The notes below the pieces were generated by a model. It did no database searches. It worked only from the letters and a program-made list of their open reading frames with translations, and had not been told where the DNA came from. Shown here one piece after another: positions 421 through 37,299 of a stretch of DNA of 64,000 nucleotides. A program made the position numbers and the translations under genes. Origin of the DNA: Streptomyces phaeoluteigriseus (GTDB taxonomy: Bacteria; Actinomycetota; Actinomycetes; Streptomycetales; Streptomycetaceae); assembly GCF_001896135.2 (NCBI RefSeq), contig NZ_MPOH02000015.1, forward strand, positions 305,268 to 369,267, in the 5' to 3' direction. Numbering within the stretch: the stretch's first letter is position 1; each line of letters starts with the position of its first letter.

Positions 421-1005
421 TCAGGAACCGCCATCCGCCAGCTCGCCTCCCGGCTCCGCCGCCTGCCGCCGTCCTGCGGCCCGGTCCGCCTGATCGGCGT
501 CGACGGGCACGCCGGATCGGGAAAGTCCACGTTCGCGGAGCGGCTGGCCGAGGAACTGGGCGGGGCACCGATGGTGCACCTGGACGACCTCGCGACCCAC
601 GACGAGTTGTTCGCGTGGACCGGGCGGCTGCTGACCCAGGTGCTCGAGCCGCTCGCCCGGGGCGGGACGGCGCACTACGCCCCCTACGACTGGCGCACCC
701 GTCGCTTCGGCCCGTCCCGGCCGCTCCCCCCGGCTCCCGTGATGGTGATCGAGGGCGTCGGCGCCGGCCGCCGCGCCCTGCGGCCGTTCCTGGCGCAGCT
801 GCTGTGGATGGAGTTGCCCCACGAGGAGGCCTGGGCCCGCGGGCGGTTCCGGGACGGGGAGGAACAGCGGGAGTTCTGGGACGGATGGGTCGAGGCGGAG
901 GCACGACATTTCGCCGAAGACCCGTCGCGGCCGTACGCGCACGGGTTGGTACGGCAGTTGCCCAAGGGGTACGAGGTGTTCCCGGGGCCCGAGGGAACGC
1001 GCTGA
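421..1005 (+). CDS. Uridine-kinase-like P-loop protein, 5' end unresolved
   Basis: The frame encodes RLIGVDGHAGSGKSTFAERL, a Walker A loop at about nucleotides 493-545, followed by a P-loop kinase-like body with MVHLDDLATHDELFAW and a C-terminus FPGPEGTR. It looks like a small uridine-kinase/AAA-type nucleotide-binding protein of unknown substrate. No ATG, GTG or TTG exists in this frame between the upstream stop (TAG at 346-348) and the ATG at 571, which lies after Walker A. Coding-like codon use continues upstream in another frame (about 370-418), so a missing base near 415-425 or a non-standard start is likely. The coordinates given are the minimal convincing coding span; the true start is not known. 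Confidence 0.6.
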   Translation, partial: SGTAIRQLASRLRRLPPSCGPVRLIGVDGHAGSGKSTFAERLAEELGGAPMVHLDDLATHDELFAWTGRLLTQVLEPLARGGTAHYAPYDWRTRRFGPSRPLPPAPVMVIEGVGAGRRALRPFLAQLLWMELPHEEAWARGRFRDGEEQREFWDGWVEAEARHFAEDPSRPYAHGLVRQLPKGYEVFPGPEGTR

Positions 1006-1102: not shown

Positions 1103-1132
1103 TTGACCGGGGGCCCGTACAGGACTTACGTT
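1103..1132 (+). promoter_or_regulatory. Sigma-70-type promoter of a candidate small RNA
   Basis: TTGACC (1103-1108) and TACGTT (1127-1132) are separated by 18 bases, a good match to HrdB-type Streptomyces promoters. The predicted transcription start, about 1139, falls two bases before a pair of tandem hairpins and about 360 bases before the nearest convincing start codon. Confidence 0.5.
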
Positions 1133-1138
1133 CTCAAT

Positions 1139-1206
1139 GCGCGGCCTCAGGGGCCGCCCGCAGTCGCGAAGCCCCCGGTTGTTCCCCCGTGATCGGGGGC
1201 TTCGTT
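1139..1206 (+). ncRNA. Candidate short two-hairpin small RNA upstream of the AAA gene
   Basis: From the predicted start near 1139 the sequence holds two stems. The first is GCGGCC/GGCCGC (1141-1146 with 1152-1157). The second is GAAGCCCCCG/CGGGGGCTTC (1168-1177 with 1194-1203), a perfect 10-bp stem with a 16-base loop containing a run of five C, followed by GTTCT. The arrangement of promoter, immediate hairpins and a terminator-like 3' end suggests a discrete RNA of about 65-70 nt. The C-run in the loop recalls the actinobacterial 6C-type RNAs, but I cannot confirm membership. It could instead simply be a terminator for the upstream kinase gene. Confidence 0.45.
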
Positions 1207-1500
1207 CTGCCCTCACGCCCCCGTTCGCGCCGGTTTACGGACGCGCCGTGGTGCCGACAGTTCACCCAGGGTCACCACCCGGCGGTGCGCCCCCTCTGCT
1301 CCCACCTCGTCAAACGGGCTGTGCCGCACCCTTCGGCGGGGTGCTCCCCCGCAGGTACGATGCCCTCGGTGCGACCTACGGACGACTGCTGCGCGCACCT
1401 GGCAACTCCGGTCCGCGGCACAGCCGTTGGACCATGGCAGCCGAAGGGCTCCGCCCGGCGGCATACCGACGCCGACGGGGCACGGTTTGTGGGGGACGTG
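1207..1500. other. Non-coding leader before the AAA ATPase gene
   Basis: The reading frame of the AAA protein stays open upstream to 1189, but that stretch overlaps the terminator-like hairpin and does not resemble the family. I see no other gene. A Shine-Dalgarno-like GGGGGA at 1489-1494 precedes the chosen start. Confidence 0.5.
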
Positions 1501-3360
1501 ATGGACTTCGGCACCCAGGGCCCCGAGGCCCCGGCCGACCTCGCCTGGCTACGAGGCGTGGACGCCTACACCGTGGGCGCGTATCCGCAGGCGGAGGAGG
1601 AGTTCCGCACCGCGGTGCGGATCGATCCCGGCATGGCCGACGGCTGGCTCGGGCTGCACGCGCTGCGCGTCGACACGACGACGGCGCTGCTCAGGATGTT
1701 CCGGCACCGCGACCGCTTCGGCGAACAGCGCACCCGGCACCGCCGAACGCTCAACTCCTGGTACTGGCTGGGCTGGTGGGTGCAACCCGTGCTGGAGAGC
1801 CCCCGCGACCTGCTGCTCGCGCACGCATCGCACTGGCTGGACGGCCGGCACGTGCCCGAGCTGGACCGGGCGCTCGCGGGTCTGCCGCCCGTCGACACCG
1901 ACCACCAGGTCCGCTTCCTGCACGCCTGCCGCGCCTACCTGGTCAAGGACTGGGAGCAGCTCGTCCGGCACACCGACCCGCTCCTCGACGACCCCCTCCT
2001 CGGCATCGAGGCCGGTCTGTTCGGCGGCATGGCCCGGGTCCGGCTGGAGATGTACGGGCAGGCCGAGCCGCTGCTCTCGACCGCGCTGATGCGCTGCCGC
2101 AGCGAACAGCCGCAGCGCAAGGAGCTGCGGTACTGGCTGGCCCGCGCGCACGAGGGCACCGGCCGTTCCGCCGCCGCGCTCCCCCTGTACCGGGCCGTGC
2201 ACCGCGTCGACCCCGCCTTCATGGACACCTCGGCCCGGCTCGCCGCGATCTCCGAGGGCGACGGCTACGACGACACCGCCGACCTCGCGGCCATCACGCT
2301 GAGCGGTGTCGGGCAGGACGTCGGGGACGGGCCGGACGTCCTGGACCCGCTGTTCGGCACCGAGGGCCGGGACCTCAAGCTGACCGAGCCGGCCGACCTG
2401 CCGCCCGTCGGTCCCGTCCCTACGGTGCCCGACCCGGCCGTACGCGAGAAGACCGTGGTGTCCACGGTCCTGCCGGCCGGCCCCACCGACCCGGTGTTAC
2501 TGGAGGAGGCGCTCGCCGAGCTGGAGCGCATGGTGGGCCTGGAGCCGGTGAAACGGCAGGTCAAGGCGCTGTCGGCACAGCTGAACATGGCTCGGCTGCG
2601 GGCCGGGCAGGGCCTCCCGGTCCAGCCGCCGAAACGGCACTTCGTGTTCTCCGGCCCGTCCGGCACCGGCAAGACCACGGTGGCGCGCATCCTCGGCCGC
2701 GTCTTCTACGCCCTCGGCCTGCTCGGCGGCGACCACCTGGTGGAGGCCCAGCGGGCCGACCTCGTCGGCGAGTACCTGGGCCAGACGGCCGTGAAGGCCA
2801 ACGAACTGATCGACTCCGCGTTGGGCGGCGTCCTCTTCGTCGACGAGGCCTACTCCCTGTCCAACTCCGGCTACGGCAAGGGCGACGCGTACGGCGACGA
2901 GGCCCTCCAGGTGCTGCTGAAGCGGGCCGAGGACAACCGCGACCACCTGGTGGTGATCCTGGCCGGCTATCCGGAGGGCATGGACCGCCTCCTCGCGGCG
3001 AACCCGGGACTCTCCTCCCGCTTCACGACCCGCGTCGACTTCCCGTCGTACCGTCCGCTCGAACTCACGTCGATCGGTGAGGTGCTCGCGGCGGACAACG
3101 GTGACGCGTGGGACGAGGAGGCGCTGGACGAGCTGCGGTCGATCGCCGGGCACGTGGTGGACCAGGGGTGGATCGACGAGCTGGGCAACGGACGCTTCCT
3201 GCGGACCCTGTACGAGAAGAGCTGCGCCTACCGGGACCTGCGGCTGTCGACGTATCCAGGGACGCTGACCCGGGACGACTTGTCGACACTACGACTGCCG
3301 GACCTGATGCAGGCGTACGGCGAGGTGCTGTCGGGACGGGGGCCGCAGGACCCGGCCTAG
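1501..3360 (+). CDS. CbxX/CfqX (EccA-like) AAA+ ATPase with N-terminal TPR region
   Basis: The protein has 619 residues from ATG 1501 (GTG 1498 is also possible; both follow GGGGGA). Residues about 10-270 look like a TPR-type helical region: 'AYTVGAYPQAEEEFRTAVRI' is a typical TPR helix pair. A linker follows, then a single AAA+ module with Walker A GPSGTGKTT at residues 385-393 and Walker B LFVDEA near 446-451, plus a sensor region ILAGYPEGM. This is the fold of CbxX/CfqX proteins and of EccA, the cytosolic ATPase of type VII secretion. No ESX genes are nearby, so the partner is unknown. The stop codon directly abuts a MITE-like inverted repeat. Confidence 0.85.
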   Translation: MDFGTQGPEAPADLAWLRGVDAYTVGAYPQAEEEFRTAVRIDPGMADGWLGLHALRVDTTTALLRMFRHRDRFGEQRTRHRRTLNSWYWLGWWVQPVLESPRDLLLAHASHWLDGRHVPELDRALAGLPPVDTDHQVRFLHACRAYLVKDWEQLVRHTDPLLDDPLLGIEAGLFGGMARVRLEMYGQAEPLLSTALMRCRSEQPQRKELRYWLARAHEGTGRSAAALPLYRAVHRVDPAFMDTSARLAAISEGDGYDDTADLAAITLSGVGQDVGDGPDVLDPLFGTEGRDLKLTEPADLPPVGPVPTVPDPAVREKTVVSTVLPAGPTDPVLLEEALAELERMVGLEPVKRQVKALSAQLNMARLRAGQGLPVQPPKRHFVFSGPSGTGKTTVARILGRVFYALGLLGGDHLVEAQRADLVGEYLGQTAVKANELIDSALGGVLFVDEAYSLSNSGYGKGDAYGDEALQVLLKRAEDNRDHLVVILAGYPEGMDRLLAANPGLSSRFTTRVDFPSYRPLELTSIGEVLAADNGDAWDEEALDELRSIAGHVVDQGWIDELGNGRFLRTLYEKSCAYRDLRLSTYPGTLTRDDLSTLRLPDLMQAYGEVLSGRGPQDPA

Positions 3361-11048: not shown

Positions 11049-11083
11049 ACGTATACGGCGGCACGCACGAATGCCTGCCCGCC

Positions 11084-11210
11084 GCGCACTGCCTCCCATC
11101 CGGACTTTAACCGTCGGTCCAGGAATTTCACCTGGTCAACCGGCCGCTGGAAGCGACCGGGTCGCGGACTGTAACCGCCGGTTCGGACTTTCACCGACCC
11201 CGGAGTGCGC
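11084..11210 (-). promoter_or_regulatory. FMN riboswitch (RFN element)
   Basis: Read on the minus strand, this segment has the RFN order. It opens with closing stem GCGCACT paired with AGTGCGC, then GGGGTCGGTGAAAGTCCG, ACCGGCGGTTACAGTCCGCGA, a variable stem, CCTGGACCGACGGTTAAAGT and GGATGGGAGGCAGTG. The conserved GGTGAAAGTCC and CGGTTA..AGTCCG blocks are intact. It binds FMN and lowers expression of the downstream ribE-ribM-ribBA-ribH genes, and probably of hisE-hisG, when flavin is plentiful. The aptamer 3' end is 150 bases from the ribE start. Confidence 0.95.
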
Positions 11211-11352
11211 TGCTGTAGGTACAGGGCCAGTGTGCCACGCCCGGTACTCGTCCATGCGGGTGAAGTCTGTGGGGTGGCTCACAGGGGGTGTCCATGGACA
11301 TCTCGGACGGACCCCGGGGGCCCCAACTCGCCGCGCGCACAGCCCTCTTCGA

Positions 11353-37063: not shown

Positions 37064-37299
37064 AACGCTCCCTGGGGTTGCAGCGGCTGCTGGCTCATCA
37101 TGGGCGGACGCGACGGGAGCTGCGCCCGGCGTCGTCCGACAACAGTTTATCGGTCGCGCTTCACCACCGGCCCACCTGTCTCGCCTCTCGGGAGCCCTGT
37201 GACCTGCGGCACAGGCATTCTGCCCAATGCGGACCGCTGTTGGCCAGGGGCGCACACCCGAATGGGCAAGGTCGGGAAACCGTGACGCGCATCAAACAA

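Follow-up and report, generated by a model that had tools for sequence, protein, structure and literature searches.

A conserved small RNA with a C-rich terminator loop upstream of an EccA-like ATPase gene in Streptomyces

The window, a stretch of 64,000 nucleotides from Streptomyces phaeoluteigriseus, carries a predicted small RNA (sRNA) of approximately 70 nt at 1138..1210 (+), between a P-loop kinase-like gene and an EccA-like ATPase gene. The best explanation, at a probability of about 0.65, is that the sRNA acts as a repressor through a seed of cytosines in its terminator loop, resembling B11/6C of mycobacteria in action while standing outside the 6C family. The sRNA itself has very probably been reported already. 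The present analysis adds the boundaries of the sRNA, its range and covariation, the constancy of its proposed seed, a probable separate promoter for the EccA-like gene, the two-loop form in g3, and the candidate target.

Promoter, structure and neighbouring genes

The -35 box of the sRNA promoter, TTGACC (1103..1108, +), is the same in 126 of 126 loci and 100% conserved in an alignment of 89 sequences. After a gap of 18 nt it is followed by the -10 box TACGTT (1127..1132, +), which appears as TANNTT at a spacing of 17 or 18 in 125 of the 126 loci and as TGCGTT in one. The TTGACC-18-TACGTT promoter named in the first-pass annotation is therefore present at 1103-1132, with its boxes kept in at least 125 of 126 loci. 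A sigma-70 scan of 950-1560 listed no promoter at the sRNA, because TACGTT is too distant from TATAAT. Both ends of the transcript are predicted, the start from the -10 box and the end from the second hairpin and the drop in conservation. The conservation profile (89 sequences) rises at ~1101, reaches 100% across the loop and falls at ~1212, which fits the predicted transcript. Upstream of the promoter, TCACACAGCGTGA at 1019-1031 is partly palindromic and has several well conserved columns.

The RNA at 1138-1210 folds into two hairpins with a minimum free energy of -46.6 kcal/mol (z -4.9; 0/200 dinucleotide shuffles equally low). When the promoter is included (1103-1220), z is -3.3, one of 200 shuffles is equally low and hairpin 1 pairs differently. 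Hairpin 1 (1141..1157, +; 1141-1147 with 1151-1157) is variable in sequence and its loop is without conservation. Hairpin 2 (1166..1205, +) has a 16-bp stem (1166-1181 with 1190-1205) closed by the octaloop UUCCCCCG (1182..1189, +), the proposed seed, which is invariant in 97/97 aligned sequences gathered with a query that held the loop. The octaloop contains five C, in agreement with the C-run noted earlier in the second loop. Hairpin 2 is also the likely intrinsic terminator. A terminator scan of 950-1560 gave two overlapping sites at the sRNA, where 0.4 were expected, so that the terminator-like character first ascribed to this hairpin holds, though the U-tract on its downstream (3') side is weak and that side is rich in GC. 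The short RNA first proposed, with two hairpins and a promoter of its own, is borne out by the comparison of loci, the fold and the predicted length of ~70 nt, and a probable homologue is described on Northern blots (PMC3765725).

A short peptide encoded leaderless from an ATG at 1137 is hardly credible as an alternative reading. An ATG stands near the start in 58/97 sequences; against the peptide, it is absent in the other 39, and the loop falls in all three frames relative to it (28/15/15). This reading was rejected on both counts.

The gene downstream (1501..3360, +) encodes an EccA/CbxX-like TPR-AAA ATPase with matches to Pfam T7SS_EccA1_N, AAA and AAA_lid_6. Its product scores 315 bits against NCBIfam EccA, below the cut-off of 467. 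The label EccA-like, already given at first reading, is right because the T7SS_EccA1_N and AAA domains match and the NCBIfam score stays below its cut-off. The P-loop kinase-like gene upstream (433..1005, +; start uncertain) matches NCBIfam PRK06547 at 82.9 bits (cut-off 173). In a redundant set of 313 loci the EccA-like gene lies downstream of the sRNA on the same strand in 300, and the kinase-like gene upstream on the same strand in 291. Of the 13 loci without the downstream gene, eight matched the pattern by chance, seven of these being from outside the family, and the other five have fewer than 400 bases of downstream sequence.

The EccA-like gene appears to have a promoter of its own. TACGAT (1356..1361, +) is its probable -10 box, judged from conservation in 89 sequences; it belongs to GGTACGAT at 1354-1361, whose columns are 98-100% conserved with one at 89%, within a conserved promoter-like block at 1351-1362. 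Conservation is low between the sRNA and the upstream blocks of the gene, and for these two reasons the sRNA is not simply the leader of the EccA-like gene. Further conserved blocks between the two lie at 1262-1275 around TCACCCAGGGTCAC and at 1403-1428 around CAACTCCG...GTTGG.

It is accordingly very improbable that the stretch is only the intrinsic terminator of the kinase gene, or a leader or attenuator of the EccA-like gene. Its position between both genes on the same strand and its terminator-like hairpin would suit such a role; against it stand the retention of both promoter boxes in at least 125/126 loci, the promoter-like block of the EccA-like gene, and the probable homologues that are described as running as RNAs on Northern blots (PMC3765725).

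Conservation, covariation and taxonomic range

With 1100-1220 as the BLAST query, a DNA match was obtained in 283/295 sampled genomes of Streptomyces and in 135/200 genomes of a family sample, some of the latter probably by chance, the weakest matches being short ones. Among 129 loci examined, the RNA was found in 126 by BLAST and in the same 126 by the loop motif; the three missed were the genome's own 6C locus and two divergent loci that were later found to carry the RNA. The set of 126 counts the locus of the window's genome twice and contains 122 differing sequences over the RNA. Structure was tested on 97 representatives clustered from this set.

In these representatives 97.1% of the cells of the two-hairpin structure are paired. 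Changes on both sides occur in 11/23 pairs (shuffle mean 4.4) and in 63 cells (shuffle mean 16.0), values reached in 0/500 shuffles; the slid-partner controls are 35-57% paired. The slid control and the distant genera carry more weight here, because relatedness inflates the contrast with shuffles. Hairpin 1 has 90.1% of its cells paired and double changes in 5/6 pairs, and the 5' segment folds better than the mononucleotide-shuffle mean in 97/97 sequences. Hairpin 2 (mean -29.6 kcal/mol) has 99.6% of its cells paired and double changes in 6/17 pairs. Compensatory changes in both stems, which had been named beforehand as a test of the RNA, are therefore present.

The constancy of the loop is partly due to selection of the loci, because most of them were found with a query that held the loop. 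In g11, g14 and g15 the stem differs in sequence and the loop and -35 box are kept; in g5 the stem remains similar. The g3 loci were found via the EccA protein and not via the loop. Their promoter is kept, the octaloop is unchanged, and its stem runs without interruption for 24-34 pairs (G-U allowed); in the two g3 loci displayed, L478 (G296) and L479 (G322), a second C5 loop precedes the octaloop. These two homologues are separated from the EccA-like gene downstream by ~330-510 bases, and the long stem is also seen in L477 (reversed; G312). Neither model R1 nor the gapped pattern recovers the g3 form, and the strict stem filter passes over one mismatched g14 copy (L277), so that the misses at family level include loci with the sRNA.

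The pattern TTGACC-N(68-96)-GTTCCCCCGYG occurs in 271/293 genomes of an order sample and in 0/15 genomes belonging to two further families of that order. In a class sample it occurs in 38/40 genomes of Streptomyces and in 14/354 others, compared with 7/354 for the reversed control. These 14 matches were taken as chance, and seven that were fetched have no EccA-like gene downstream. Weak covariance-model matches outside the family were likewise rejected, since 0/7 loci read have the loop on a stem. The exact loop-stem pattern gave, among the matches listed, 80 named records, 79 from Streptomyces and one labelled Streptosporangium nondiastaticum. In the window's genome the 14-mer around the loop is single copy. 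Judged from these patterns, the range of the sRNA is the family Streptomycetaceae.

Identity and relation to known RNAs

Judged by gene order and by description, the sRNA is very probably the homologue of scr1434/sar6912/svr1031. These RNAs were found by Moody et al. in 2013 by RNA-seq and Northern blot in three species, where they are highly expressed and give their strongest Northern signal while aerial hyphae form and during sporulation (PMC3765725). They are described as conserved between species and as forming a stem-loop of very high stability whose loop is rich in C (PMC3765725), and the sRNA of the window has a 16-bp stem, the loop UUCCCCCG and a hairpin mean of -29.6 kcal/mol. They are named after the right-flanking gene, which by count is the EccA-like gene. 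For this count, SCO1443 is stated, alongside the FMN riboswitch, to encode riboflavin synthase (PMC4681348). An FMN riboswitch (Rfam) lies at 11082-11212 (-) before the riboflavin genes and served as the anchor. When the riboflavin synthase gene next to it is counted as 1443, the EccA-like gene comes tenth and receives the number 1434, which would make it the equivalent of SCO1434. The count assumes the gene order of S. coelicolor and passes a pnuC-like gene, ribA, ribH, hisE, hisG, a PH-domain gene and two CNNM genes, of which the rib, his and pnuC names are our own presumptive reading of the open reading frames. Elsewhere in the window, an Rfam Streptomyces-metK RNA is located at 37068-37184 (-) with 115.9 bits.

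The present identification rests on gene order; the section of Moody et al. on scr1434 gives neither a target nor covariation (PMC3765725), and a literature search for scr1434/sar6912/svr1031 found no target in print. Another Streptomyces sRNA with a C-rich terminal loop, scr5583/sar2652/svr5279 (PMC3765725), differs by description in its gene number and in an expression that varies between species.

At the sRNA Rfam 15 gave no match at the gathering score. Seven sub-threshold matches (E up to 10) overlap or neighbour it, none near the gathering score, and eight divergent loci of the sRNA gave weak matches to microRNA models only. The link to 6C (RF01066) that had been suggested at first reading does not stand as membership: no match to the model was obtained at 950-1520 even at E 10, and the one 6C-like match of the genome is on another contig (44.1 bits, cut-off 47). 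6C has two loops with strings of cytosines (PMC10470900), while here the loop of hairpin 1 is variable in the alignment and two C5 loops occur only in the two displayed g3 loci. The sRNA shares with 6C/B11 that it is an actinobacterial sRNA with a C-run in the terminator loop, and differs in lacking an Rfam match, in the single C5 loop and variable first hairpin of its aligned members, and in the presence of a separate 6C-like locus in the genome.

Candidate target and proposed mode of action

6C/B11 acts on targets with G-tracts at the ribosome-binding site, and an ESX gene is one such target. In Mycobacterium marinum the C-rich terminator loop of B11 acts on guanine tracks adjoining ribosome-binding sites (PMC12395582). 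In M. abscessus B11 represses the ESX-4 gene eccB4 via C-rich loops; the eccB4 leader contains a six-G tract, and compensatory mutations are given as proof of the repression (PMC10470900). The anatomy of the sRNA is the same in kind, and its own pairing and repression are proposed from complementarity. It is best read as an independent sRNA, transcribed from its TTGACC/TANNTT promoter and ending at the second hairpin. The loop UUCCCCCG, held open on a rigid terminator stem, would be the pairing seed; its predicted partners are G-runs located at Shine-Dalgarno sites or immediately before them, and this pairing may block ribosome binding and promote decay as for B11/6C in mycobacteria. Binding of the loop to G-rich Shine-Dalgarno sites, as suggested at first reading, stays the favoured hypothesis. 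Among candidate targets the EccA-like mRNA of the neighbouring gene ranks first; it has an apparent promoter of its own and two G-runs in the start region.

Of these runs, site A (ACGGGG, 1475..1480, +) is complementary to the loop and lies upstream of the Shine-Dalgarno site, and site B (TTGTGGGGGA, 1487..1496, +) is in the Shine-Dalgarno region of the EccA-like gene, with 10 predicted loop pairs, three of them G-U, the longest helix that this genome's EccA leader forms with the loop. Leaders of EccA-like genes were compared, in equal windows, with a background of 303 script-predicted genes and starts, EccA among them, taken from the window plus 400 kb of its genome. A run of the site A type (at least four G at -28 to -15) occurs in 212/222 EccA leaders and 20/303 genes, the site B type (at least four G at -13 to -3) in 218/222 and 40/303, and both runs together in 209/222 and 6/303. 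A helix of at least 10 pairs with the loop (G-U allowed) is possible in 184/222 leaders and 7/303 genes, and a perfect 9-pair loop complement occurs, e.g., in L107 (genus g7). The 222 leaders represent 148 different sequences and are related, so that they are not independent tests; 22 leaders with an unplaceable start (many from distant genera), 56 duplicates and 13 without the gene were dropped. Among the 97 representatives 93 were usable, 89 with both G-runs and 68 with a helix of at least 10 pairs.

Within the window's genome alone the case for this target is weak, because 30/303 genes equal or exceed the duplex energy of EccA. The G-rich Shine-Dalgarno site of the gene could be kept for translation alone. 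An 8-nt loop complement was found before start codons at 107 sites in this genome, compared with 71 for the reversed control, an excess that G-rich Shine-Dalgarno sites alone could produce. For the 11-nt exact loop complement, a match before start codons occurs in at least 130/150 genomes. Among 50 matched 11-nt loci read, just two pairs recurred, the first of near-identical members and the second of distant ones (30% identity), so that no conserved distant target was found.

Genomes without the sRNA bear on the same question; they were counted without a tree, as genomes and not as events. In 7 of the 12 Streptomyces genomes without a DNA match the EccA-like gene is kept, the intergenic region is 30-102 bases long, and the sRNA and site A are gone. 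In G152 the contig end falls within the EccA-like gene, and G028, G079, G139 and G150 have no close EccA match. Three genomes without the pattern (G376, G864 and G970) resemble the seven with a shrunken intergenic region. A gap of ~30-102 bases between the kinase and EccA-like genes, with the sRNA region gone, is seen in ten genomes of the genus (G376, G970, G121, G864, G120, G037, G156, G186, G135 and G113; loci L455-L463 and L480). In G394 and G452 the EccA-like gene and the intergenic region remain, but the sRNA and site A are missing. Most leaders without the sRNA retain site B. In G302 the sRNA is lost and both G-runs are kept, which counts against the EccA target.

That the adjacent EccA-like mRNA is a target is thus put forward tentatively, from sequence, and is the somewhat less probable outcome. 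A little short of an even chance is given to a trans-acting C-loop regulator of other genes, with the EccA-like gene as a bystander that happens to have a G-rich ribosome-binding site. The ordinary rank of EccA in duplex energy (30/303) speaks for such a regulator, as do G394 and G452, where the gene persists although the locus lacks the sRNA, and the several targets reported for B11/6C (PMC10470900). It is opposed by the occurrence of site A, a run outside the Shine-Dalgarno site, in 212/222 leaders, and by the absence of site A from the readable sRNA-less leaders of Streptomyces. The fuller proposal, in which a family-wide C-loop regulator unrelated to 6C controls EccA-like translation via the two G-runs, the two loops of g3 serving the two sites, is rather unlikely.

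A different role for the loop, as a protein-binding site or a titration decoy instead of a base-pairing seed, is improbable. A protein-bound hairpin would likewise show a family-constant loop on changing stems, but pairing accords better with the additional C5 loop of g3 and with the G-runs of the adjacent leader. We know of no protein partner of the sRNA loop.

Targets are known for few of the conserved small RNAs of Streptomyces. The present sRNA is retained by almost every genome sampled from the genus, these scans gave no Rfam 15 match for it, and its function is testable from the defined seed, the boundaries and the ready candidate target. If the preferred reading of a terminator-loop C-seed repressor is right, C-loop control in Actinobacteria would extend to a second sRNA, apparently unrelated to the first. 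If control of the EccA-like gene via its two G-runs is also true, 6C/B11-style control would have arisen twice in Actinobacteria, both times touching type VII secretion-like genes.
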